Shown here: positions 12,547 through 42,810 of the stretch, piece by piece
How the letters are laid out: every line of letters begins with the position of its first letter
Numbering within the stretch: position 1 is the stretch's first letter
Assembly: GCA_949283575.1 (NCBI GenBank)
Contig: CASDSU010000016.1
Coordinates: 64,130-128,129 of the forward strand
Direction: 5' to 3'
Origin: an uncultured Eubacteriales bacterium
GTDB taxonomy: Bacteria > Bacillota > Clostridia > TANB77 > UBA1234
DNA length: 64,000 nt
Notes under the pieces: generated by a model
The model's database searches: none
Told to the model about the DNA's origin: nothing
What the model saw: only the letters and a program-made list of their open reading frames with translations
Position numbers and translations under genes: made by a program

Positions 12547-12622
12547 GGGCCATTAGCTCAGTTGGCAGAGCACTTGACTTTTAATCAAGTTGTCCGCAGT
12601 TCGAATCTGCGATGGCTCACCA
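12547..12622 (+). tRNA. tRNA-Lys (anticodon TTT)
   Basis: Acceptor GGGCCAT / ATGGCTC, anticodon stem CTTGA / TCAAG with loop CTTTTAA, T-arm CAGTTCGAATCTG, CCA encoded. First of three closely spaced tRNAs. Confidence 0.96.
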
Positions 12623-12630
12623 CATAACCT

Positions 12631-12705
12631 GGCCCGTTGGTCAATCGGTTAAGACATCGCCCTTTCACGGCGGAGTGAGGAGTTCGACTCTCCTACGGGT
12701 CACCA
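12631..12705 (+). tRNA. tRNA-Glu (anticodon TTC)
   Basis: Acceptor GGCCCGT / ACGGGTC, anticodon loop CTTTCAC, T-arm GAGTTCGACTC, CCA encoded. Lies 8 nt after tRNA-Lys. Confidence 0.96.
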
Positions 12706-12709
12706 AATT

Positions 12710-12785
<76 letters not shown>

Positions 12786-12859
12786 TATGAATGTGAAACT
12801 CTTACAGTAGTAAGGGTTTTATTTTTTTAAAAATAATTATAGAACCCTATATAATACAA

Positions 12860-12888
12860 TTGACAATCAAGAACGTACGTTCTATAAT
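12860..12888 (+). promoter_or_regulatory. Consensus promoter of the KilA-N gene
   Basis: TTGACA (12860-12865), exact 17-nt spacer and TATAAT (12883-12888). The spacer contains the LexA-like palindrome. Transcription should begin near 12895, which excludes the upstream in-frame TTG codons as starts. Confidence 0.85.
12870..12883. promoter_or_regulatory. LexA-type SOS operator
   Basis: AGAACGTACGTTCT is a perfect palindrome of the GAAC-N4-GTTC type recognised by LexA in Gram-positive bacteria. It fills the spacer between -35 and -10, where a bound repressor would block RNA polymerase. Inference: the downstream KilA-N gene is induced by DNA damage. Confidence 0.7.
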
Positions 12889-12919
12889 ATTTTTGAAAAA
12901 AGAAATTGTAAAAACAGAG

Positions 12920-13759
12920 ATGAGGGTTAAAAATACTTTTGTTGGTATTATGAGAGTTGGAAATGTAGATTATATATCATTAACAGATTTGGCAAGATAT
13001 CAAAATGAAGATGATCCTTCTGGTGTTATACGAAACTGGATGTCAAATAAAAACTCGTTTGAGTTTTATAGTTTGTGGGAAGAACTACATAACGAAAAAT
13101 TTAATTCCGTGGAATCACACAGAATTAAAATTGAGGAAGTTGGATATAATCGTTTTACTATGACTCCAAAGCGATGGAAAGATAACTTTAATGCTATTGG
13201 TATTATTCCTAGTAGTGGTAGATATAGTATTGGTACTTTTGCACACCCAGAGATTGCTTTTGAGTTTGCTAGTTGGCTAAATACAGAATTTAAACTTTAT
13301 TTAATAACGGAGTTCGAGAGATTAAAACAAAATGAAAGTTATCAAAACAAAGTCGAATGGTTTGTTAGACGAGAATTGACAAAAACAAATTATAGAATAC
13401 ATACTGATAGTATAAAAGAAAATATAGTTCCTACTCTAACTGAAAAACAGAAACAATATGTATACGCAAACGAAGCTGATATACTAAATGTTGCTTTATT
13501 TGGAATGACTGCAAAGGAATGGAAAGATAAAAATCCGAATTTGGATGGTAATATGAGAGACTATGCTAACATTCTTCAACTCGTAATTTTAAGTAATTTA
13601 GAAAATATTAATGCAGAACTTATAAATCAAGGGATGCCACAAAATAAACGATTAGAAAGACTAAATGAAATTGCTAAAAAGCAAATAGAAACTTTACAAA
13701 ATAGCCCAAGTATTAAGAAAGTTGAAAGTTTAGAAGATAAAAATTTGTTAAGCAAGTAA
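12920..13759 (+). CDS. KilA-N domain protein, probably SOS-regulated
   Basis: About 279 residues. The N-terminal 115 form a KilA-N domain: VDYISLTDLARYQNEDDPSG, then WMSNKNSFEFYSLWEELHN, FNAIGIIPSSGRYSIGTFAH and EIAFEFASWLNTEFKLYLI. KilA-N domains occur in phage antirepressors and other DNA-binding regulators. The C-terminal part (GMTAKEWKDKNPNLDGNMRDYA and a long helix) is the conserved tail found in related bacterial proteins. Start chosen at ATG 12920, because earlier in-frame starts lie in the promoter; the ribosome-binding site is weak. The gene directly follows tRNA-Thr and opens the accessory region. Confidence 0.8.
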   Translation: MRVKNTFVGIMRVGNVDYISLTDLARYQNEDDPSGVIRNWMSNKNSFEFYSLWEELHNEKFNSVESHRIKIEEVGYNRFTMTPKRWKDNFNAIGIIPSSGRYSIGTFAHPEIAFEFASWLNTEFKLYLITEFERLKQNESYQNKVEWFVRRELTKTNYRIHTDSIKENIVPTLTEKQKQYVYANEADILNVALFGMTAKEWKDKNPNLDGNMRDYANILQLVILSNLENINAELINQGMPQNKRLERLNEIAKKQIETLQNSPSIKKVESLEDKNLLSK

Positions 13760-13834
13760 ATGTTACATTAAAAAAATATGTCATAAAAATGGGCTGTAAA
13801 AAAACAAGCAAATATATTAATTTATAACTATGTC

Positions 13835-13880
13835 AAGAACTTTAAAGGCGCTTAAATAGCGCCTTTAAAGTTCTTATAAT
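13835..13880. terminator. Strong terminator after the KilA-N gene
   Basis: Perfect 18-bp stem (13835-13852 with 13858-13875) around a 5-nt loop TAAAT. Only a short T-rich stretch follows on the plus strand. Confidence 0.7.
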
Positions 13881-13930
13881 TCTAATAGTTATAATTAAAA
13901 TTCTGTTTTTTTACACTCCCTTGAATTTTG

Positions 13931-14131
13931 TTATTCAGCAATATTTTTATAAAAATAATATTCATTACTTTTTCCGCTTGATACAAATTCAATTAAAGCA
14001 TGTGTATTATCTTCAGTTCTAAATTGATAAAAAGGTACATATAATTTTTTTATTTTTTCTATTCTAACCTCAGCCGTGAATTCTTGACTTTTAAAAATTT
14101 TTATATTTATAAACCGATTAAATAGACACAA
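13931..14131 (-). CDS. Small hypothetical ORF, possibly a gene remnant
   Basis: 66 codons from a TTG with no clear ribosome-binding site. The C-terminal part (VPFYQFRTEDNTHALIEFVSS) looks like a beta-rich protein fragment, but no family is recognised. It may be the tail of a lost gene at the element boundary. Confidence 0.25.
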   Translation of the reverse strand: MCLFNRFINIKIFKSQEFTAEVRIEKIKKLYVPFYQFRTEDNTHALIEFVSSGKSNEYYFYKNIAE

Positions 14132-14186
14132 GGGCGTCCATTAAAAGTCTAAAACTTTTCTATATGTTTACATTTTGATATAAAAA

Positions 14187-14507
14187 CTATCTGTTACCAG
14201 TTTCTTTTTCAACAATAATTTCTCCACTTTCAATTTGCTCATTAATAATATTAGTAAAACTTATATACGGATTTGGTAAAAGTAATTTATTTTGTACATT
14301 ATACATTGTTTTTAATTTCTCATTATAGTCTATATTTGAAGTAGGCTCTTCAATTTTCATATTGTTTTCCATGGCAATTTCGCCTATCAAACTATATGCA
14401 ATATCTATATGTTTTTCACATTCTTTTAGTCTAATAGAAAGAGATACATTATATAAAAGCAAACCAACTATTAAAACAATCATTACTATAATTAATATTC
14501 TTTTCAT
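14187..14507 (-). CDS. Small single-pass membrane protein of unknown function
   Basis: 106 residues: an N-terminal transmembrane helix (about 3-24, very Ile/Val/Leu rich) followed by a soluble helical tail beginning LKECEKHIDIAYSLIGEIAMENN. AAGGGGGAA lies 7 nt before the ATG, so translation is credible. No family recognised; adjacent genes are a remnant and, divergently, a mobilizable-element gene. Confidence 0.5.
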   Translation of the reverse strand: MKRILIIVMIVLIVGLLLYNVSLSIRLKECEKHIDIAYSLIGEIAMENNMKIEEPTSNIDYNEKLKTMYNVQNKLLLPNPYISFTNIINEQIESGEIIVEKETGNR

Positions 14508-14730
14508 AAGAATTCCCCCTTATATAAACCCATTAAACAAGTTATTCTAAGTTCCATATATAATTATTATACCATTATAATTATGGTAATTTCAACATTT
14601 TTTGACAAAACCATAATGCTTGGATTCATTTTTAGGATTTAATCTTTCGGGAAAATTATACTTGAATTTTAACAAACTATTTGCTAATCTATATATAGAA
14701 AATCTGATTGATGTTTATATCAATCGTTAA

Positions 14731-14822
14731 AGGAGCGAAAAAGTTGTAAATAACTACGACAACCGCTCCATTTGAATACAACTTACGGACGGTAGAAAGT
14801 TCGTAAGTTTTTATTTTTATAT
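14731..14822 (+). ncRNA. Structured leader/attenuator-like RNA before the element gene
   Basis: Two consecutive stem-loops. The first pairs GGAGCG with CGCTCC and, inside, GTTGT with ACAAC. The second pairs ACTTACG with CGTAAGT around an 13-nt loop and ends in a T-rich tract, so it looks like a terminator. A gene with a very strong ribosome-binding site starts 45 nt later. The arrangement suggests transcription attenuation or a short regulatory RNA; no known family could be assigned. Confidence 0.45.
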
Positions 14823-14865
14823 ATGAAACTTAAATGTTCTCTTTCTAGGAAGGAGGACATTTTTT

Positions 14866-15150
14866 ATGCTTGAATTTAAAACTATTCAAATTTTAAAGCC
14901 AAATACGGAAATACTTGAAATAATTAAGGATTATAATTACAAAATTAAAAACGGTAAAGTTAAAAATCTGTTACATGCCAATTTACAAGTTATAGAACCT
15001 ACTGAATACTTAATTACATATCCAATAACTCTTACAATACTAGAATACAAAATAAATGAAATATCTAGTAAGCCATTTTATATTAAAGAGCATAAACAAA
15101 AAAAATCACTATCAGAAACCATTCAAATTTTACAGAAACTTAGAATTTAA
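14866..15150 (+). CDS. Hypothetical protein of the mobilizable element
   Basis: 94 residues, no membrane segment, rich in Ile/Lys/Glu; IQILKPNTEILEIIKDYNYKI near the start and a helical C-tail. The ATG follows AGGAAGGAGGACA, one of the strongest ribosome-binding sites in the region. It lies between the attenuator-like leader and the serine recombinase. I do not recognise a family. Confidence 0.5.
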   Translation: MLEFKTIQILKPNTEILEIIKDYNYKIKNGKVKNLLHANLQVIEPTEYLITYPITLTILEYKINEISSKPFYIKEHKQKKSLSETIQILQKLRI

Positions 15151-15164
15151 ACCTTATTTTTTCT

Positions 15165-15372
15165 TTTTTAGTGAGGAAACATTAGAGAAGTATTAATTGA
15201 TAGACTTCGTAAAACTCATTTTAAATAAGATAACTAATAAAAAATATTAAAAATTTTTAAATAAAATTAAAGATTAGACTATACTTTTCATTTATTAATG
15301 GGGAAACTAATGAAAAATATAAAAAAATTAATTTAGTGTTTGTTATTTTGCTTTTTAGTTAGGAAACAAGTG
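15165..15372 (+). repeat. Three degenerate copies of a TAGnnAGGAAAC motif before the recombinase
   Basis: Copies at 15165-15185, 15291-15312 and 15352-15372 share TTTnTTAnTnnGGAAAC followed by an A/T-rich TRR end. The third overlaps the leader of the recombinase gene. They could be recombinase-binding half sites or decayed copies of the 5' end of a recombinase gene. Apart from these, 15151-15387 holds no gene. Confidence 0.35.
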
Positions 15373-15387
15373 AGGAGATGATATTTT

Positions 15388-16551
15388 ATGAGATGTGGTA
15401 TTTATGTAAGAGTTAGTACAGATGACCAAAGAGATAATGGTTACTCTATCGATTCACAACTTAGAATGATAAAAGAATACTGTGAAAAGAATGATTATGA
15501 TATTGTAGATGTCTATAATGACGCAGGGCATTCAGGAAAAGACTTAATGAGACCAGAAATGCAAAGATTACTTGCTGATATAAAATCTAAAAAGATTGAT
15601 AAATTAATTGCTATTAATGTAGATAGACTTACCAGAAATAATTATGATGGCTTTTGGCTACTTAATTATTGTGAGGAACACGATGTTAAAATAGAACTCA
15701 TTTTAGAGCCTTATGATGTATCTACTGCTAATGGTGAAATGATATTTGTAATGAATTTGGTCTTTGGTCAAAGAGAAAGAAAAGAAATTGGAGCAAGAAC
15801 GAAACGTGCTATGGAAGAAATGGCATTAGAGAAAATACACCCTAGTAAAGCACCTTATGGCTATATTAGAAATAAAGAAACAGGTCATTTAGAAGTAGAA
15901 CCTATTAAAGCACAAGTTGTTAAAGAAATATTCGAACTATGTAAACAAGACAAATCTACAAGAAGTATAGCAACGATTATGAAAGATAATAACGCTTATT
16001 TAAAACAAGGCAAGTGGGCATCTGATAGAGTTTATAAAATACTAACTAATTCTATTTATATTGGTATCTTTGAATACAGAAAATATAAACGAAAACCACA
16101 AGATATTTTAAGAGTTGAAAATTATTGTGAACCTATTATAGATGAAGTTACTTGGAATGCAACTAGAAATGTGTTAATAAAAAATAAACATTCAAATTAT
16201 GGAGAATACATTCATTTATTTTCGGGATTAGTAAAATGCCCTATATGTGGCAATATTATGAGTTCATCAGAATCTTTTAAATATCCAAATGGAAAATTAA
16301 AAGTATACTATCATTTAAGGTGTAAAAATCATAATTGTAAAGGTTTTGGACTTCATTATAATACTGAAAAAATCGAAGGCAAATTAAAGCGAATACTAGA
16401 AGAATTAACAATATTTATACTTTCTATGGATAATGAAATTATTACTTGTAACTCTACTAAAAGCAATGATGTAAAAGAAATAGAAAAAGCTATTGAAAAG
16501 TTAAAACTACAAGAAAAAAGATTAGTTGATTTATTGTTTAGAAGAAAATGA
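15388..16551 (+). CDS. Large serine recombinase, N-terminal and zinc-ribbon part (C-terminus frame-shifted)
   Basis: Resolvase catalytic domain at 1-145 with nucleophile S10 in YVRVSTDDQ and arginines in VDRLTRN and ERKEIGARTKRAM. Then the recombinase domain (about 160-260: APYGYIRN, VKEIFELC, RVYKILTNSIYIG) and a zinc ribbon (CPICGNIM ... CKNHNC). Such enzymes integrate and excise Tn4451-type elements by a covalent 5'-phosphoserine intermediate. The frame ends in the coiled-coil region at LVDLLFRRK-stop. The expected C-terminus continues in another frame from 16526, so the gene carries a one-base loss near 16530-16548. Confidence 0.85.
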   Translation: MRCGIYVRVSTDDQRDNGYSIDSQLRMIKEYCEKNDYDIVDVYNDAGHSGKDLMRPEMQRLLADIKSKKIDKLIAINVDRLTRNNYDGFWLLNYCEEHDVKIELILEPYDVSTANGEMIFVMNLVFGQRERKEIGARTKRAMEEMALEKIHPSKAPYGYIRNKETGHLEVEPIKAQVVKEIFELCKQDKSTRSIATIMKDNNAYLKQGKWASDRVYKILTNSIYIGIFEYRKYKRKPQDILRVENYCEPIIDEVTWNATRNVLIKNKHSNYGEYIHLFSGLVKCPICGNIMSSSESFKYPNGKLKVYYHLRCKNHNCKGFGLHYNTEKIEGKLKRILEELTIFILSMDNEIITCNSTKSNDVKEIEKAIEKLKLQEKRLVDLLFRRK

Positions 16552-16978
16552 CAATATGATTTTTACTAATATTAGAAATATAGGTTTTACTTTTCTATAT
16601 GATTTACTATCACGAGAAGCCAAAAGAGATATGATTCATGGACTTGTATCACAAGTAGAAATTAATAGAGATAAAAATTATAATATTGAAATTAAGAATA
16701 TAAAATTTACGGATGAATTTATAACAAAAAGTAGTAAAAAGTATTTAAAATATCTTGATAAAATAATGACTGATAACAATATTGGAATTAAATATCAAGA
16801 AGAAATCAACAAAGAAAAATTAAAAAAATTAGAACAAGATTACGACATTCTATCAGTTGCAAAAATAAAAGACAATAAATATTCTAATGAATTTTTAGAA
16901 GATTTTATATCAAAATCCAAAGAGCATTTATATATAGATGGTATTATTAGTTGCCCTTATGTTGAAAAAATAAAATAA
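16526..16978 (+). pseudogene. C-terminal part of the serine recombinase, out of frame
   Basis: Residues SREAKRDMIHGLVSQVEINRD and IEIKNIKFTDEF are the usual end of the coiled-coil and C-terminal domain of large serine recombinases. No start codon with a ribosome-binding site exists; the frame overlaps the preceding gene by 26 bases. It is read here as the separated tail, so the recombinase is probably inactive unless the frameshift is an error. Confidence 0.7.
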
Positions 16979-17050
16979 AAGATATTTTAATATTAGTACC
17001 TAAAACTAAAATGGAAACAGTAAATTAAATAAAGAAATGGAGAGATAAAA

Positions 17051-17413
17051 ATGAAATTAACTTATACAAAAGTTGGAGATTATTTATTACCTAATTTAAC
17101 TATTAAAAATCAAAATTATAAAAGAATTAACAAATATGGATTACTAAAATTGAACTATCTGAAAAAAACTAACAAGGCACTTTATATTACTCTTTTAATG
17201 AAAGATGAACTAACTAATTATCTTATTTCAGTCAGTAATGAATGTGAAAATAGTTTAAATAACCTAATGGAACAATTAAAAAAATCAAACAAATTACTAT
17301 CTGAAAAAAGTAAAGAAATCAATCAATTAGAACGTACAAAACTAATAAATAACTACAAAAATATTGCAGAAGAAAATATTTTAAATGAACTAACTTATAA
17401 TAAAAATGTGTGA
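17051..17413 (+). CDS. tnpV: TnpV-type transposon-encoded protein
   Basis: 120 residues matching TnpV of Tn4451-like elements: KLTYTKVGDYLLPNLT at the start, then KYGLLKLNYLKKTNKALY and a coiled C-terminal half with NYKNIAEENILNEL. The role is unknown; tnpV is nearly always found with tnpX-type recombinases and mobilization genes. GGAGAGATAAAA precedes the ATG. Confidence 0.8.
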   Translation: MKLTYTKVGDYLLPNLTIKNQNYKRINKYGLLKLNYLKKTNKALYITLLMKDELTNYLISVSNECENSLNNLMEQLKKSNKLLSEKSKEINQLERTKLINNYKNIAEENILNELTYNKNV

Positions 17414-17490
17414 GTACAAACTATAATATTTGTACTAGCCAGCACTGAATTTGTACTCCCGTACAAATTCTATTATGGGAAATTCCCATA
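17414..17490. other. Cluster of three palindromes, oriT-like
   Basis: GTACAAA / TTTGTAC (17414-17435), a 10-bp-arm palindrome (17447-17470, arms GAATTTGTAC / GTACAAATTC around TCCC), and TATGGGAA / TTCCCATA (17474-17490). They lie just upstream of a MobC-like gene, the usual position of oriT in mobilizable elements. The first two share the GTACAAA arm, as expected for repeated protein-binding sites. Confidence 0.5.
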
Positions 17491-17518
17491 CCCTTACTTT
17501 GAAAAGATAAAATTGATT

Positions 17519-17818
17519 ATGAGAAAAAGAAATATTAAAATTAATGTATTTTTAAATGAAGATGAAAAGCGAATGCTAGTAGAAAAATCTAATAAAGCCA
17601 GACTATCACAGTCTGACTTTATTAGAAAATTAATTAACGATTATGCAAATGATGATGGAACTAAAAGCAATTTAGAAGAAGAAAGGGTACAACTATTAAA
17701 AATAATTGAAAATTTATCGTTATTAAAACGACAAATGGATTTTCTTGGATATCGTGATTATTCTAATTTGATTATTAAACAAATCAATCAAATTAAAAAT
17801 ATTTTAAATGATTATTAA
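17519..17818 (+). CDS. MobC-like ribbon-helix-helix mobilization protein
   Basis: About 99 residues. RKRNIKINVFLNEDEKRMLVEKSNKARLS then SDFIRKLIND is the pattern of plasmid/transposon mobilization (MobC-type) proteins with a ribbon-helix-helix fold, which bind oriT and help the relaxase. The rest is a helical tail. No relaxase gene follows: the next gene is on the opposite strand and unrelated. The element is therefore truncated or depends on a relaxase elsewhere. Confidence 0.65.
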   Translation: MRKRNIKINVFLNEDEKRMLVEKSNKARLSQSDFIRKLINDYANDDGTKSNLEEERVQLLKIIENLSLLKRQMDFLGYRDYSNLIIKQINQIKNILNDY

Positions 17819-35064: not shown

Positions 35065-35208
35065 AAACTCACCTCGAATTTAATATTCCCAAAACTATCA
35101 AAACAATACAAATAAATCCAAATTCTGTAAGAAAATTGTCTGTAATTGTTGAATCTTCGCGTTATTTAAGGTAAAATTATATTAGGAGCGTGCAAGGAGG
35201 ATGATGCT

Positions 35209-38200
35209 ATGGGAAATGTAGTTGGTAAGGTTAAAAAAGCCGTACAAGGCTTTGTGAAATTTGTAAAGAAAATTATAAATATGGTTAAGTTTTTTATGAC
35301 CTACGTAGGTTGGGTTGTTGCGATACTTATCCTAGTAGTTTTTTTAATTATAGCACTTGCTGTGTTAATAAGAACCGCAGAACATGCTTTAGGGAAATGG
35401 CTTGATGCTGATTATGCTGGTATTTCGACAGAAGGAGACTATGAATATTTAGTTTCTAGCTTAGGGTATGCTGGCTATGATTCCTTAATAACAGAAAAAG
35501 TTTGGCAAGAATTTATGGCTTATGAATATGCTGTATTAATGGATGTTGCTGAATTCATATATGATGGTCAAGAAGAATATTACGGCGATCCTAATAATAT
35601 GAAAGGAGCATATGGTCCATACTCAGAAGCATACTATAATGATGAAGACGAAGCACAAGTTGATCCTAATACTGGTAAGAAGATTGCTGGTCCAGCATAT
35701 ATGCCATATTTAGAGGTTAGCGGTGAATATGATATTTCAAAAATGTCATTTAAAGATTGGCAAAACTGTGTAATAGAGGGCCAAGGATCGGCTAGATTTG
35801 GTATAACTAGCATAGGTCAGCTTACGGAGGGTTCTTCTGGCATAGAGAACGGAAAAATTTCTTATGGTGGAAATAGAGATGTTATGCCTCCAACACTTTT
35901 GTATGAATTTAAAACAAATCCTTATGAACCAGAGGCTAAAGGTTCGTTAGTTCCATATATTACAGTATTAAAAGAGCAACTTAAATATTATTACTATACT
36001 GTTGGTGGTAGAGAAGATTTTAGAGGTTCAAAAAATGACAAAAATGGTGGCGTAGTAATAAATGAAAGCAATATAGATCTTGTTAACTTAATGGAAATAA
36101 ATAATGCACTTAATGCGGCGAATCCATATTTGCCAAAATCAACGGCTCTTTCTGAACATCTTATACAAAATCCAGAGCTTAATCCGTTATCAAATGAAGA
36201 TGCGTGGCCTGTTGCTGATACAAAACTTCCACAAGATTTGTATTTTACAAACGATTATGGCTCAGTTACATATAAAACAGCGTTGCAAATAATAATTGAT
36301 AGATATTTGCCTAAAGCAAGCTTATTAACAGCGTGGTACTATGTAAAAGATACAGATTTGGCTGATCCAGAAACTCAAGGAAGAGAATCTGCAGATTCTA
36401 CGCATATACAATATAAATTCAATATTGATGAATTAATGATAGATATAAAATCTATATATAACTATTATTGTTGGACAAATGCAGGAGAGTCATACACAGA
36501 TGAGTCGATTCAAGCAATATTGTATGATTCAGGAGACGGAACAGTTGTTAGATTGGAAGGACAAGGTAGTCCTGCAGAAACATATCCTTCAACACAAACA
36601 ATTGCTACTACAAACAACGATACATTTATTCATTTTGGACAAGCTGGACTTGAGACGAATAGATTTGGTGTATTTAATTTATATGAGGTAGATGGCTCTA
36701 CAACAAAACCAAGTGCACCACAAGCGATTACAGGTGATCCAGAAGAAGTAACAATTCCTGTAGCTACAGAAGTATTATCTGAGAATGCAGAATTCTTAGA
36801 TAGATTTGGTTTGGATGCATCATATGATTATACATATAGGTATACATATACGCAAAGAACATGGATTCCACCAGTATATGGATCAGCTGAAGGGGGAACG
36901 GGCACAGAAGTAACGATACGTATAGATAATGCACTACATCACCATAATTTTGGTTCATCTACGTTTAGAATATCCGAAAGAACGTGTGAAACATGTTATA
37001 GAAATTATGAAGATTATAATGGTTGGAAAATTGTTTCTATAACACCTGGAAGGAATCATGATACATATAGGCTTCGAGATGGAGAAAGTGCTTCGGGTGG
37101 AGATGGAACTTCAAGTGGACAGGTATTGATTTCTCCTGGATATTGGCATAATGAAACAGTTGAAGCTATTGCTGATGCTACTGCGTTTTTAGTTGTTCCA
37201 TACGAAGCAACTCGCGACTTAGTTCCTAGAGGGTATGAAGATATCCCTGAGTCTGATAAAATTTCGAAATATATACATGCTAAAGTTGTTATGCAAGGGG
37301 GTTATAATCTTGTAGATGATAATGAAGAATTAAAGGCAGCGGAAGCTTATACTATAGAAAGTCAAGAATCAGAATTCATGAATAATGGTTACAGATATCC
37401 AGAACGTACTGGACCTTCAAAAGATGATCCAACAAAAGTTGCAGCAGAACCATTGACATATTATGATGAATATTTGCATGAAATACCTTTCTTTAATTTC
37501 CACGCTTTTTCGGGTGATTCTATGACCCCAGAAAGAGTTAAAGAACTATTTAATGTGGAAATGAGTGAGTTATCTCAAACGTTAAGTGGATCAAGTGGCG
37601 ATGGAGATAAAGAATTTTTTAAATTGTTCTTAGAAATAGTTCCTACTATGCCTGAGCCAGATCCAACAGATTCTATGACAGAAACACAAACTAGACGAGA
37701 TTTTGAATTTCAGGAAATTTTATCAGTTAATAGAGTTACAATTAATGGTTTTGCAACACCAGATCAAGATGCAAGATATAATTATCCAAGTTATACAGTT
37801 GTTGCCGATCAACCTGATCCATATAATGCAATTATAGATATAGATGAATATGTTTTAGGATTAATACTAGATATATCTCAAAAGAGAGTTGCAACAATGA
37901 TTGTTACAGATGTTGAAGCTTGGGCAAAGAGTGCTACATACTCTATAGAAATAATTCAAAACTCTTTTGACTACACAAACTATAGATACGTAGTTCCTCA
38001 TTCTTATTTTAGCTTTGGTGTTAGAGTGTTTAAAATAGATGAAAATCCTTCATATAGAATTGAATATTATAAAGCATATTTTTCTAAATATGAAGAAAGA
38101 GAACCGGGAATAAAAGAAGCGGACGTTCTGACTATGATGATGAAATGGGAAGAATTTGCTAAGAGTGGAAATGATACAGCATATGCATTTATGAGAGATC

Positions 38201-40983
38201 TGTACAAATTAATTATGTATATAAGAGAAGCTGGTGATCAAATTCTTGGTACAGCGTACACATACATGTATGTTCCAGATACAATATGGGAGTTTAGAGA
38301 AGGAATATCACAAGAAGCTTTCTGGACTGAGCGATTAGCTGCAGAATTGTATGGTGATGATGCGTTAACGGAAGAAGAGCTTAGAAAAGTACGTGTAAAG
38401 AAAGAAGAAATTGCATGGCAAATACTAGATTATGATGAGTATGCAGAATGTCAATACGAAGAAAACGGCGAATTAAAAGCTAAAGTATATGCATTATTCC
38501 CATTTGGTGTTCCATATACTAGAACATGGTTTATGGAAGATGCGTTGGAAAAAGGCGTGTTCTATGATGGCAATTACACAGATGGTCATGGCGGTGCTGA
38601 CTGGACATCGAGAGCAAAGATGTCTTCTATGCTAGCAGGAGAAGCTGGATTAGCAAAAGAAATTTACGACTATGAACTTCGTTCAAGAACATTAAGAAAT
38701 ATAATGAATGGTACTGGAAATTATAATGAAAAGATTGACAAAGCGCTAGAATTTATTCGTAATGGAAGCGGAGGTACAGCATATACAAAAGCTGAAAATG
38801 AACTTAGAGTTGAACTTCGTGAATATGAGGTAAATTCACCAGAAGTAGCTGTTGCAGGTGGCGTAGTATATAAAGCGGATTATAACTGTTACAGTGGTTT
38901 TTCGGCTGGTGTAACCCACACAAAGGATGATGCTCATACATCAGCAAGAACGTCATATGTTCATATGAGAAGATGGCCAGTAGTTCAAGTTGGTGATATA
39001 GTTGGCCCAGGAACAGTACTTGGTTATGAAGGAACAACTGGTAATAGTGGTGGTAACCATTTACACCAAAATATAAATATTGGTGGAGAAAAGGACAGTC
39101 CTGCAGAATATATGGGACCAATATTTGCACCTTTCTATAATCAAGAAAAAGTATTCGAGATTTCACAAGAATTAGCAAATTATTCACCTGATCAAAGATT
39201 ATTATTAGGTACAGATTATTATACGCTTATAAGAACTGTATTAATGCAAGAATTTGATTCTAGTGGTAAAGCTAAATATTCAGGAGACATAATGCCAGAA
39301 GGACAAGCAACGTACTTAAAAACAGCATCGTTTGTAACAATTTCTGGTGATGAATATATTGATTTCTATGGAGCTGATACCAAATTTGATGAATTAGGCA
39401 ATCCGATAGGAGGTGCAAGTGCCGTATTAAGCGGTGACAAAATAATAGTTAAAGTTGGTATTAATCCAGTAGAATATTATTTGTGTAAGTATAAAGCAGA
39501 AGTCATAAATTCAAATTCATCGGGTGATGCTTCTCTTTCTGGTGATGATTATTTGTCATCAAAAGGTACTACGCTATTAAAAGTGTTGAGTAAAGAAAAA
39601 ATAGATGATTTTTCAGAAGAGGTTTTGAGTAATTCAATTAGAGTTGAGACAGATGTTGATATAGAAAGTATTACAACTGTAGTATGGGGAAATAATGTTC
39701 CATATTCTCCTATAATTGCCGATATGGATGATGCGATTGATATAACTTCATTAGATGTAGAAAAGGCATTTAAGGCTACAGATTTTGCAAAGGAATATAA
39801 AAGTCCATCTAATGATCCACCAGATGATCTTAATGATGTAAAAGCTACAAAGGATTTCTTTGATGCAGAAAAAGCTAAAGATAAGATTAATGTCCCAGAT
39901 TGGATGTTGTTGTATTTATCAGATATTGATTCACCTTATTCAATTCCATTCTATGAAGGACCTGTATCAGTTGCACATCAAAATTCGGGTATAATGCTTG
40001 GTCTACCAGGCTCGATAAGTGGAGATTTGGAAAAATTTCAACAAGCTATTAGAATGAAGGGATTAGATCCAAATAGAGAGCTTGTAATGAGTGGAGAGTT
40101 TGATGTTATTACAGAAAGAATACTTAGAGAGAATGTAGCTCCTGTAATGGACGAACCGGGCGCAATTGCAAAAGGTGCTGCCGGAACATATGGTGGTTAT
40201 AGTATTGATGGTGTTGTTCGTTGGAATGCATATGTAACATATGGCAGTTGTGCTGCTGCAAGAAAAGCTGGTTTACAAGCAACAGAGATAGGTGCTACAC
40301 TGAATGGCCAACATCCGTTGTTCATAGCTGCTGTTGCACAACAAGAGTCTGGGTTCTTACCAACAAATGAGTCAGATGAATTTTGTGATGGCGCAGATTC
40401 GATATCGTGGGTTGATTCTCCAGCATTCCCAGACGAAACAACAGATTTGGATGTATCTGCAGGAACAATTGTTTATAGAGGTGTAAAGAGAACAATAAGG
40501 AGGGCACAAGGTTTAATGCAACTTGCACCTGGAGTTGGTCTAAGTAGAGCGAGACAAAAAGTAGGAAATAATATTGATCAGATAGTTTCATTAATTAGAA
40601 GTCCAAGAGGAAATGCCACACTTGGTGCAGAGTATTTGTCACAGAATAAACAGGATATTATGGCTAATACAACAAATTATGAACGATTAAAAGAAATTGT
40701 TAAAGCAAATCCTGCATTTGAGCAAATGGCTAAAGATTCAGGAATCAGTGGTATGGAACTTGCACTTTCTGGCTGTTCGGCATATATGTATAATAAAGGA
40801 CCAAATGGTGATAATACAGAAAATATTATAGAGCAAATGGCAAATCTTAAATATGACCCATCAACTAAGACAGCATATTATAATGAGGGTGATAGATCTG
40901 AAAAAACGCAAGAACATGGATATTCGCATAAAGTTATAACATATATGGTACAAAATGCTACTGAGCAAACTAGAACTTATTAA
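35209..40983 (+). CDS. Giant membrane-anchored protein with M23 endopeptidase and lytic transglycosylase domains
   Basis: 1,924 residues. A basic amphipathic start is followed by one transmembrane helix (about 28-55); the rest should be outside. A split M23 (LytM) signature is present: HGGAD at 1127-1131, then an insertion of about 85 residues, then AVAGGVVYKADY, YVH (H1252), GTTGNSGGNHLH (H1284, H1286). Near the end is an SLT-type lytic transglycosylase: AAVAQQESGF with E1713, RAQGLMQLAPG and NATLGAEYLS. Two peptidoglycan-cleaving activities in one protein recall conjugation and phage-tail muralytic proteins, but no such genes surround it. Residues 60-1100 match nothing I know. Low-complexity SGSSGDGD and SSGDASLSGDD linkers occur. 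AAGGAGG lies 8 nt before the ATG. Confidence 0.75.
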   Translation: MGNVVGKVKKAVQGFVKFVKKIINMVKFFMTYVGWVVAILILVVFLIIALAVLIRTAEHALGKWLDADYAGISTEGDYEYLVSSLGYAGYDSLITEKVWQEFMAYEYAVLMDVAEFIYDGQEEYYGDPNNMKGAYGPYSEAYYNDEDEAQVDPNTGKKIAGPAYMPYLEVSGEYDISKMSFKDWQNCVIEGQGSARFGITSIGQLTEGSSGIENGKISYGGNRDVMPPTLLYEFKTNPYEPEAKGSLVPYITVLKEQLKYYYYTVGGREDFRGSKNDKNGGVVINESNIDLVNLMEINNALNAANPYLPKSTALSEHLIQNPELNPLSNEDAWPVADTKLPQDLYFTNDYGSVTYKTALQIIIDRYLPKASLLTAWYYVKDTDLADPETQGRESADSTHIQYKFNIDELMIDIKSIYNYYCWTNAGESYTDESIQAILYDSGDGTVVRLEGQGSPAETYPSTQTIATTNNDTFIHFGQAGLETNRFGVFNLYEVDGSTTKPSAPQAITGDPEEVTIPVATEVLSENAEFLDRFGLDASYDYTYRYTYTQRTWIPPVYGSAEGGTGTEVTIRIDNALHHHNFGSSTFRISERTCETCYRNYEDYNGWKIVSITPGRNHDTYRLRDGESASGGDGTSSGQVLISPGYWHNETVEAIADATAFLVVPYEATRDLVPRGYEDIPESDKISKYIHAKVVMQGGYNLVDDNEELKAAEAYTIESQESEFMNNGYRYPERTGPSKDDPTKVAAEPLTYYDEYLHEIPFFNFHAFSGDSMTPERVKELFNVEMSELSQTLSGSSGDGDKEFFKLFLEIVPTMPEPDPTDSMTETQTRRDFEFQEILSVNRVTINGFATPDQDARYNYPSYTVVADQPDPYNAIIDIDEYVLGLILDISQKRVATMIVTDVEAWAKSATYSIEIIQNSFDYTNYRYVVPHSYFSFGVRVFKIDENPSYRIEYYKAYFSKYEEREPGIKEADVLTMMMKWEEFAKSGNDTAYAFMRDLYKLIMYIREAGDQILGTAYTYMYVPDTIWEFREGISQEAFWTERLAAELYGDDALTEEELRKVRVKKEEIAWQILDYDEYAECQYEENGELKAKVYALFPFGVPYTRTWFMEDALEKGVFYDGNYTDGHGGADWTSRAKMSSMLAGEAGLAKEIYDYELRSRTLRNIMNGTGNYNEKIDKALEFIRNGSGGTAYTKAENELRVELREYEVNSPEVAVAGGVVYKADYNCYSGFSAGVTHTKDDAHTSARTSYVHMRRWPVVQVGDIVGPGTVLGYEGTTGNSGGNHLHQNINIGGEKDSPAEYMGPIFAPFYNQEKVFEISQELANYSPDQRLLLGTDYYTLIRTVLMQEFDSSGKAKYSGDIMPEGQATYLKTASFVTISGDEYIDFYGADTKFDELGNPIGGASAVLSGDKIIVKVGINPVEYYLCKYKAEVINSNSSGDASLSGDDYLSSKGTTLLKVLSKEKIDDFSEEVLSNSIRVETDVDIESITTVVWGNNVPYSPIIADMDDAIDITSLDVEKAFKATDFAKEYKSPSNDPPDDLNDVKATKDFFDAEKAKDKINVPDWMLLYLSDIDSPYSIPFYEGPVSVAHQNSGIMLGLPGSISGDLEKFQQAIRMKGLDPNRELVMSGEFDVITERILRENVAPVMDEPGAIAKGAAGTYGGYSIDGVVRWNAYVTYGSCAAARKAGLQATEIGATLNGQHPLFIAAVAQQESGFLPTNESDEFCDGADSISWVDSPAFPDETTDLDVSAGTIVYRGVKRTIRRAQGLMQLAPGVGLSRARQKVGNNIDQIVSLIRSPRGNATLGAEYLSQNKQDIMANTTNYERLKEIVKANPAFEQMAKDSGISGMELALSGCSAYMYNKGPNGDNTENIIEQMANLKYDPSTKTAYYNEGDRSEKTQEHGYSHKVITYMVQNATEQTRTY

Positions 40984-40989
40984 AACTAA

Positions 40990-41021
40990 TACGTTTCCGC
41001 TAGTAATATGGCGGAAACGTA
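40990..41021. terminator. Hairpin after the giant gene
   Basis: Perfect 10-bp stem ACGTTTCCGC / GCGGAAACGT with a 10-nt loop, but only a short T-run, so it may be an mRNA-processing or partial-termination hairpin that lowers expression of the next two genes. Confidence 0.55.
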
Positions 41022-41067
41022 AGTTTATATTAAGAATAGAATGCCAAAGAAGGGAGAAATTGAACTT

Positions 41068-41940
41068 ATGGGAAATAGAAAATTGAAACCACAGGTTAAG
41101 GTTGTTTTAGTGATAATACTTTTAATACTTGTTGCAATTGTTGTTGAAAATTTAATAAAATTATTAGTTAATGTAACTGAAGAAGTTAAAACAAAACATG
41201 AATTAAAAAAAGAACAAGAAATATACATGTCAACTCCTGAATATGCTGAAGAAAAATATGTTGAAGCTTGTGTGAAGAAAACTATAGAATATTTAAATTC
41301 TGGTGACTATGAATCTTTATATAATATTATAGATCCGGATTATAAAGAATATATGCAAATAGATTCTATTGATGAATTTAAAAATTTATTAGCAACATAT
41401 ATTGAAGGGGCAGATTCAGTAAAACTATTAGATTATGGAATGCAAAATAATAGATATATTTGTGAGATAGTACTTGTTTCTGGAGCAAATACTATTAATA
41501 AAAGAATATTAGTAAAACCATTAGAAAATGAAGAATTTTATGTTGTTTTAGATGACATATATAGTATAGAAAAATTTAATGGAAGATTTAGAGTCTTTGA
41601 TGATGAGATTGATTATAATTTAGTATATAGAGTAAATAGGGGAACAACAAAAACTTATGTAATGGATATAAAAAATTACACAAATAAAGATATGGTGGGT
41701 TCATACAAAAATACTTATTTGATGAAAACGAACAGAAAAACATGTACGGTGCAAAATGTCGAAGAACTTGAAAATGTAACTATTCCTGCTGGAGGAACGA
41801 TTAGATTAAACTTTATAATAGAAAATGTAAGTACAAATTCTTATACTTTTCCAGATGATATGTTATATCTAAACTTCGAGTCTGTAGATGGAACTAGAAA
41901 GAGTGACTCAATGATACTACAATGGGAATATTGGGAATAG
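41068..41940 (+). CDS. Membrane-anchored protein, paralogue A, unknown function
   Basis: About 290 residues: one N-terminal transmembrane helix (about 10-30), a domain starting YVEACVKKTIEYLNSGDYESLYNIIDPDY that resembles the NTF2-like/DUF4878 accessory-protein pattern, and a C-terminal beta-rich domain (NYTNKDMVGSYKNTYLM, IPAGGTIRLNFIIE). It is clearly related to the next gene in layout and in motifs (YNSGDY/YSGDFDKAYGYI, ILVKPLENEEFYVV/ILDNDNYYIV, VIPANETLNVSIE). ATG at 41068 follows GAAGGGAGAA. It sits between the giant muralytic protein and paralogue B in one operon. Confidence 0.6.
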   Translation: MGNRKLKPQVKVVLVIILLILVAIVVENLIKLLVNVTEEVKTKHELKKEQEIYMSTPEYAEEKYVEACVKKTIEYLNSGDYESLYNIIDPDYKEYMQIDSIDEFKNLLATYIEGADSVKLLDYGMQNNRYICEIVLVSGANTINKRILVKPLENEEFYVVLDDIYSIEKFNGRFRVFDDEIDYNLVYRVNRGTTKTYVMDIKNYTNKDMVGSYKNTYLMKTNRKTCTVQNVEELENVTIPAGGTIRLNFIIENVSTNSYTFPDDMLYLNFESVDGTRKSDSMILQWEYWE

Positions 41941-41953
41941 GAGGTGTATCAGA

Positions 41954-42733
41954 ATGGGAAAGAATATGAAAAAATTTTTTGTCGTGTGCTTTGTTGCATT
42001 ATGCATTGTGCTATTCCTAATATATACATTAAAGGATTTTAATGAAGAAAAAAATGGCGGAATACAAAATGTAATCGGTGAAGAATTTGGAGGTATTTCT
42101 TCATTGTCAGTTAGAGAGAATCTTATTCTTAGAAATGCAGTTGAGTTGTATATGCAAAGTATATACAGTGGAGATTTTGACAAAGCTTATGGGTATATTT
42201 CCTCTCAATATAAAGAGATAGTTTCAAAAGAAGTTTTTGCTCAAAAAATGACAGAAATAGGATTAGAAAACTTTAAAACATTAAAATCAATTAGTATACG
42301 TCAAGCTACTACCAATATGTTTATTGCACAAATTACACTTTTGAATGGGTTAGAACAAAAAATTCTGATTATATTAGATAATGATAATTATTATATTGTT
42401 CCAGAACCATTTTTGGAATATAGAGTAGTAGATAATAAGATTAAAAGAGATGGGGTTACTTATCACTTAAACGGCTATGAAATAGATTTAGAAAGATGTA
42501 TATTTGACTTAACCATAACTAATGATTCAAATGAAGATATTCAAATTATAGATGCACAAATGGCACATAGTACAGGTGGATACAAACAAGCTATTAATAA
42601 TGAATTTGTAATTCCTGCCAACGAAACACTAAATGTTTCAATTGAAATTGAAACTTATTTGGATTTTCCAACAGGATTTAGATTAAGTAGACAGGATGGA
42701 GAAAAACAGAGGATTTATACATTTGAATTATAA
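41954..42733 (+). CDS. Membrane-anchored protein, paralogue B, unknown function
   Basis: 259 residues with an N-terminal transmembrane helix (about 5-25), an NTF2-like region beginning ILRNAVELYMQSIYSGDFDKAY, and a beta-rich end (IFDLTITNDSNEDIQIIDAQ, IPANETLNVSIEIETYL). It starts 13 nt after paralogue A behind TAGGAGGTGTATCAG, so the two are coexpressed. The domain order (anchor, NTF2-like, sandwich) is like VirB8/TcpC-type scaffolds, which is only an analogy. Confidence 0.6.
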   Translation: MGKNMKKFFVVCFVALCIVLFLIYTLKDFNEEKNGGIQNVIGEEFGGISSLSVRENLILRNAVELYMQSIYSGDFDKAYGYISSQYKEIVSKEVFAQKMTEIGLENFKTLKSISIRQATTNMFIAQITLLNGLEQKILIILDNDNYYIVPEPFLEYRVVDNKIKRDGVTYHLNGYEIDLERCIFDLTITNDSNEDIQIIDAQMAHSTGGYKQAINNEFVIPANETLNVSIEIETYLDFPTGFRLSRQDGEKQRIYTFEL

Positions 42734-42781
42734 TTTGTAAAAATATGGATATAGAGATGCGAAAATATTGTGATTTTTGTG

Positions 42782-42810
42782 TTGCTATATCCTTTTTTTT
42801 GTAATATAAT
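42782..42810 (+). promoter_or_regulatory. Promoter of rpsO
   Basis: TTGCTA (42782-42787), 17-nt spacer and TATAAT (42805-42810). Transcription would start near 42817 and give an 85-nt leader. Confidence 0.7.

Follow-up and report, generated by a model that had tools for sequence, protein, structure and literature searches.

The window, the whole 64,000-nucleotide stretch of DNA analysed here (genome G000, of a Clostridia order), raises the question of what purpose is served by a giant membrane-anchored protein carrying two kinds of peptidoglycan hydrolase domain, and by the two smaller anchored proteins, B and C, encoded after it. An earlier note on this DNA had considered either a sporulation or secretion machine that crosses peptidoglycan or a domesticated conjugation-type channel. 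Comparison with the window's family (f1, 13 genomes sampled) and with four sister families of the same order (f2 to f5) points to the latter: with a probability of roughly 0.78, the module is the cell-wall complex of a type IV secretion system (T4SS) that is chromosomal, non-mobile and vertically inherited, B and C being VirB8-like, an assignment resting on homology, and the giant VirB1-like, an assignment resting on architecture and position.

Composition and placement of the module

Investigation of the giant gene product (Table 1) against Pfam, NCBIfam and PHROGs revealed matches to M23 (PF01551, E 3e-9, residues 1209-1294) and SLT (PF01464, E 1.5e-5, residues 1700-1818), both above the Pfam cut-offs, and to no other family. 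The M23 domain is split by an insert of about 75 residues, longer in some relatives, and its residues H1127/D1131, H1252 and H1284/H1286 are invariant in the seven family members aligned, while in the SLT domain Glu1713 inside QQESGF and a GLMQ motif are both in place. The single N-terminal anchor (residues ~22-59) has a positively charged cytosolic end. Open reading frame, Pfam matches, catalytic residues and anchor thus confirm the 1,924-residue anchored protein with endopeptidase and transglycosylase signatures that had been described, and, as far as sequence can tell, neither domain is catalytically dead; the protein would therefore cut the wall through both, and it has the trait of Gram-positive VirB1 proteins, an anchored extracellular peptidoglycan hydrolase with its catalytic residues. 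Residues outside any recognised domain number closer to 1,500 than to the approximately 1,000 first estimated, and a large share of the ectodomain is conserved among family members (residues 60-120, 240-550 and 860-1320). The AlphaFold model of residues 62-1207 is unreliable (pLDDT 49), and it found no match in Foldseek. That two of the conserved ectodomain regions are repeats of each other was ruled out on comparison. In two relatives the giant is split, into three open reading frames in G003 (L023:7354-12683) and two in G004 (L022:7049-13013), with downstream pieces that have no convincing anchor; either assembly error or real fission may account for this.

Regarding the two smaller proteins, hhalign shows B and C to be distant paralogues (probability 99), and C is predicted by AlphaFold as a helix, an NTF2-like domain and a beta-sandwich (pLDDT 86), in agreement with the pair of paralogous anchored proteins proposed in the earlier note. 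C thereby has the Gram-positive VirB8 trait of a single transmembrane helix with an extracellular NTF2-like domain (NTF2-like Z about 11). Its NTF2-like part is closest in fold to the MecA_N / NTF2-like domain found in PBP5 and PBP2a (98 residues, rmsd 2.3, VIA Z about 11); C, however, has no transpeptidase, and the likeness is confined to the fold. Profiles of B and C found no convincing relative among PDB sequences, and none of the characterised VirB8 proteins TcpC, PrgL, TraM and OrfG is among the sequence or fold matches listed for B and C.

Table 1. Positions in the window of the module genes, their domains and adjoining signals.
Feature	Position	Strand	Details and basis
Candidate sigma-A promoter, TTGAAT-17-TAAAAT	35149..35177	+	31 nt 5' of giant gene
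Giant anchored dual peptidoglycan hydrolase, proposed VirB1-like cell-wall subunit	35209..40983	+	1,924 aa; ORF, Pfam, 13/13 family genomes
Giant, N-terminal membrane anchor, residues ~22-59	35272..35385	+	Hydropathy; 7 K/R, no D/E in residues 1-33
Giant, conserved ectodomain stretch before M23, residues ~860-1126, fold without assignment	37786..38586	+	Family alignment
Giant, M23 HxxxD zinc ligands H1127-D1131	38587..38601	+	Invariant in family alignment; ~75-aa insert before domain remainder
Giant, M23 endopeptidase body, residues 1209-1294, with H1252, H1284, H1286	38833..39090	+	Pfam and alignment
Giant, SLT lytic transglycosylase domain, residues 1700-1818, catalytic Glu1713	40306..40662	+	Pfam; other cutters or none in relatives
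Strong stem-loop between giant and B	40990..41022	+	About -21 kcal/mol, no U-run
Protein B, proposed VirB8-like: one TM helix, NTF2-like, beta-sandwich	41041..41940	+	299 aa; hhalign, blind genome search
Protein C, proposed second VirB8-like paralogue	41954..42733	+	259 aa; TM 3-34, NTF2-like 53-151, beta-sandwich 153-259
Terminator-like hairpin and T-run 3' of C, parting module from rpsO	42746..42802	+	

Upstream of the giant gene, promoter-like hexamers with 17-nt spacing were detected 29-67 nt from the gene in 11 of 13 relatives, mostly scoring no better than shuffles of this AT-rich DNA; they may resemble housekeeping sigma-A sites rather than the sporulation type. A stem-loop of -21 to -30 kcal/mol lies between giant and B (window 40984-41040; L021:12924-13001; L022:13014-13087), its position kept in G000, G005 and G004, with unrelated sequences and no U-run.

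The location between gpr and rpsO was verified (gpr PF03418, 8e-73; rpsO downstream of the module). In a search of 95 genomes, relatives of the giant beyond the M23 domain were confined to the window's family, where all 13 sampled genomes have one, and scanning a single genome for each GTDB species returned essentially the same set, the MAGs coming mostly from ruminant and other animal guts. All 13 family genomes have the giant and, with it, a B/C-type protein, at no fewer than three chromosomal sites: the gpr-rpsO interval houses the module in several, in G008, G011 and G012 giant and B stand between rpmA and obg, the giant follows rpmA at a contig end in G010, and in G006 C is at gpr and the giant after pnp. 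Relatives thus always have a B/C-type protein besides the giant, while position and order vary; since the position varies, gpr and rpsO are incidental neighbours of the module. The part of the giant after M23 is swapped among family members, comprising SLT, glucosaminidase with CHAP, NlpC/P60, phage-tail lysozyme, or nothing recognised. Elsewhere in the window, the stretch 12547-17818, where a KilA-N protein and a serine-recombinase-like ORF (15388-16551) come after a tRNA cluster, is likely a small integrated element; the spore-type genes gpr and SpoIID are also present.

Homologues in sister-family T4SS clusters, and T4SS genes elsewhere in the genome

Long ORFs with M23 in other families of the order were found in T4SS-like clusters. 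In f2 to f5 the genes run in the order pilins, VirB3-like, a 437-aa protein, VirB4 and VirB6, followed by an approximately 300-aa protein with transmembrane, NTF2 and sandwich parts and by a giant anchored hydrolase, whose cutters vary at the same place (M23, M23 with phage lysozyme, lysozyme with M15, glucosaminidase with M15, CHAP, or C39). Both B (hhalign 99.5%, E 5e-23) and C (99.0%, E 3e-18) are homologous to the approximately 300-aa proteins, with alignments spanning NTF2 and sandwich parts and controls at 3% or below. A blind search of whole f1 genomes, using a profile built from the f2-f5 T4SS-cluster proteins alone, retrieved the B/C module proteins in 10 of 13 genomes, and in G000 its single match was protein B of the window (E 9e-13). 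For the giant ectodomain, hhalign detected no homology to sister-family giants outside M23; the syntenic giants of the sister families are likewise without detectable similarity to each other across families, so the missing homology of the f1 giant beyond M23 is uninformative.

The statement that no phage, conjugation or secretion genes surround the module holds locally within the window, but partner T4SS genes are present elsewhere in the genome. The T4SS cluster of G000 (C28:179-202 kb) encodes VirB2/TrbC pilins (PF04956 and PF18895, above cut-off, in several copies), a PrgI/VirB3-like protein, the 437-aa protein, VirB4 and five large VirB6-like proteins. The VirB4 gene (C28:196103-198073) matches P-loop_TraG (1e-14) and the CD1110 family (2e-60), and its product is 67-68% identical to a sister-family cluster protein. 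The small protein in the VirB3/PrgI position before VirB4 gave a PrgI match below the cut-off (E 0.006), and large multi-TM proteins follow VirB4 in every cluster, their match to a conjugal TM family in G000 being 1e-6, below the curated cut-off. VirD4 of G000 (PF02534, 3e-86) has its own locus at C28:474 kb, unlinked to VirB4; PF02534 is matched strongly in nearly every genome of the order, and only weakly in G007 and G004. No wall hydrolase was found in the f1 T4SS clusters. The wall module and virB4 occupy separate contigs or loci in f1, whereas they are linked in the four sister families.

When VirB4 of one sister-family cluster was compared with the 57 genomes sampled from the order, a protein with about 60-83% identity was found in approximately 43 of them, G000 among these. 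The full-length 437-aa protein accompanies VirB4 within the order, and no full-length match was found outside it in about 235 genomes of the class. Regarding the idea that it is a split-off N-terminal part of VirB4, hhalign gave no support, and an NCBIfam match to positions 48-233 of an 894-position VirB4 model speaks faintly for it. The presence in the genome of the remaining T4SS parts, together with the sister-family gene order and the blind retrieval of B, lends good support to the domesticated conjugation-type channel suggested earlier.

Further conserved genes were observed around these loci. A protein of about 173 aa, with no Pfam match, precedes VirD4 in 11 of 12 neighbourhoods in the order (L150:7858-8373; L151-L161) and is a candidate adaptor. 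Another, of about 350 aa and likewise unmatched in Pfam, lies at the edge of the T4SS cluster in four genomes (L105:79-1128, L106:6709-7770, L108:6457-7512, L111:4836-5885) and was not found in the four f1 genomes that are without core VirB4. A second widely shared cluster (G000:C28 about 280180-286755, L118:8180-14755; also L119, L120, L122, L123 and L124) contains a short 437-like protein, a second ATPase of VirB4/TraG type, two further ATPases (one CpaE/MinD-like, one CpaF/T2SSE) and a membrane protein resembling T2SSF/TadB; it adjoins gyrA or mreBCD, resembles a Tad-pilus/VirB4 hybrid and is present in genomes without the main T4SS. On the window's contig, about 64 kb to the right of the window, a relaxase, a VirD4 and a VirB4 of 25% identity (G000:C16:192101-199341) form a separate ICE-like element.

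Inheritance of the T4SS and alternative readings of the module

Regarding inheritance, the mean identity of VirB4 across 20 genomes is 70.6%, as against 70.7% for Pnp, and the distances of the two proteins are correlated (r = 0.94; 0/2000 permutations) and give the same family-level clades. The relaxase search covered one family, the MobA-type PF03432, which was not found beside the T4SS cluster and is sporadic, occurring in 19 of 57 genomes and in about 13 of the approximately 43 with core VirB4. Of the traits of a conjugative element, a relaxase is thus sporadic as far as PF03432 is concerned and horizontal inheritance is not seen, VirB4 tracking Pnp; within that relaxase scope, the T4SS is a resident machine and not a mobile element. 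These results make it very unlikely that the module belongs to a mobile conjugative element or a prophage, or is what remains of one, despite the derivation of all parts from conjugation-type T4SS and the phage-lysin type domains of the giant: VirB4 follows the species tree with Pnp-like conservation, PHROG matches are limited to the generic M23 domain, and housekeeping genes flank the loci. Likewise very unlikely is a sporulation machine crossing the forespore peptidoglycan in the manner of SpoIIQ/SpoIIIA, one of the options of the earlier note. The module adjoins gpr in several genomes, and gpr and SpoIID lie in the window, but the giant is between rpmA and obg in several relatives and after pnp in one, the homologues of B and C are T4SS-cluster proteins, no sporulation family, channel families included, is matched by B, C or the giant in Pfam or NCBIfam, and the upstream sites look sigma-A-like, which is a weak argument.

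Also unlikely is a wall-remodelling complex independent of T4SS, in which the giant would be a growth or division autolysin and B and C its membrane docking, the module having been co-opted away and its T4SS resemblance being ancestral. Such a complex would fit the separation of module and T4SS cluster throughout f1, the housekeeping-gene surroundings with their promoter-like housekeeping sites, and the persistence of the module where core VirB4 was not found; it would, however, leave the f1 T4SS clusters without a wall hydrolase or VirB8 despite a highly conserved VirB4. Nine of the 13 f1 genomes have both module and VirB4, and G002, G004, G006 and G010, all four of MAG quality, keep the module with no core VirB4 or full-length 437-aa gene detected. 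This is the chief point against the T4SS reading. At least two of these four absences look like missing contigs, which counts against the autolysin: truA flanks the T4SS cluster in G001, G007 and G011 and is missing in G006 and G010, which suggests a lost contig. G002 and G004 (89% complete) do have truA, with no T4SS gene beside it, and in G006 the site bearing the T4SS cluster in G000 is without it.

Proposed function and comparison with known systems

As the cell-wall complex of a resident T4SS, the module would supply the wall hydrolase without which the f1 T4SS clusters stand. B and C would each be anchored by one helix, with NTF2-like and beta-sandwich domains projecting into the wall, and are probably oligomers around the channel, while the membrane-anchored giant may reach outward with its long ectodomain, its M23 endopeptidase and lytic transglycosylase opening peptidoglycan so that the channel and a VirB2-type pilus could pass the thick wall. 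Motor and translocon would come from C28:179-202 kb and the coupling protein VirD4 from C28:474 kb, the three loci presumably assembling into one machine that may export protein or DNA by contact.

Gram-positive VirB1 proteins are anchored, often multidomain hydrolases and VirB8 proteins have one transmembrane helix and an NTF2-like domain (PMC12857230, PMC11753425); in the Gram-positive T4SS studied, the VirB8-like proteins bind the VirB1-like ones, and together they make up a cell-wall complex (PMC11753425, PMC12857230). By most of the parts tested, and likewise in how it would work, the present system belongs to the monoderm T4SS class. With the conjugative MPF-FATA systems (pCF10 Prg, pIP501 Tra, CTn2/CD1110-type ICEs; CD1110 is the nearest NCBIfam model to the VirB4 described here) it shares VirB4 and VirD4, together with putative counterparts of VirB3, VirB6, VirB8 (transmembrane helix and NTF2-like domain) and the anchored multidomain VirB1 hydrolase. 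It differs from them in its vertical inheritance, in having no relaxase beside the cluster, in the distribution of its parts over at least three loci, and in its pilin array, five VirB6-like proteins, a VirB8-like protein with an extra beta-sandwich and a VirB1-like protein of near 2,000 aa. Dispersed T4SS are known (PMC12102498), so that linkage of wall module and virB4 is usual and not defining. PrgK, the VirB1 of pCF10 (LytM, muramidase and CHAP), resembles the giant in its membrane anchor and its M23/LytM with a glycan-cutting domain (PMC12857230), but the giant has about 1,500 aa without known domains and a swappable C-terminal cutter, and its M23 keeps all catalytic residues while a regulatory role is ascribed to the LytM of PrgK.

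The chromosomal T4SS of Patescibacteria (that of Southlakia epibionticum, for example) offers the nearest parallel; it is mostly relaxase-less and has a VirB2-like pilin array (PMC12102498, PMC12857230). There a wall peptidase/lysozyme adjoins virB4 (PMC12102498, PMC12857230), whereas hydrolase and VirB8 are detached from virB4 in f1; moreover, the host here is a Clostridia order with spore-type genes, and B/C-type VirB8 is readily found. Of the undescribed system that had been surmised, the machine itself is thus a T4SS, and what stands is its order-wide, non-mobile and dispersed Clostridia form, of which no prior description was found in the literature searched, which is not proof of absence. 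Lying at gpr-rpsO, far from the motor genes and with no annotated T4SS family match, the wall module is a T4SS part easily overlooked.

It could equally well prove right or wrong that throughout this gut Clostridia order a pilus-bearing resident T4SS is a core trait, non-conjugative in nature, by which cells exchange protein or DNA with others on contact, the wall-crossing complex being a separate, shuffling module that changes its cutter according to the wall. A 2025 review, which notes that almost every Gram-positive T4SS known is conjugative, asks whether dedicated effector systems exist among them (PMC12857230). With a vertically inherited T4SS that includes pilins and VirD4 in about three quarters of the genomes sampled from a gut Clostridia order, this question can be put to the test beyond Patescibacteria.
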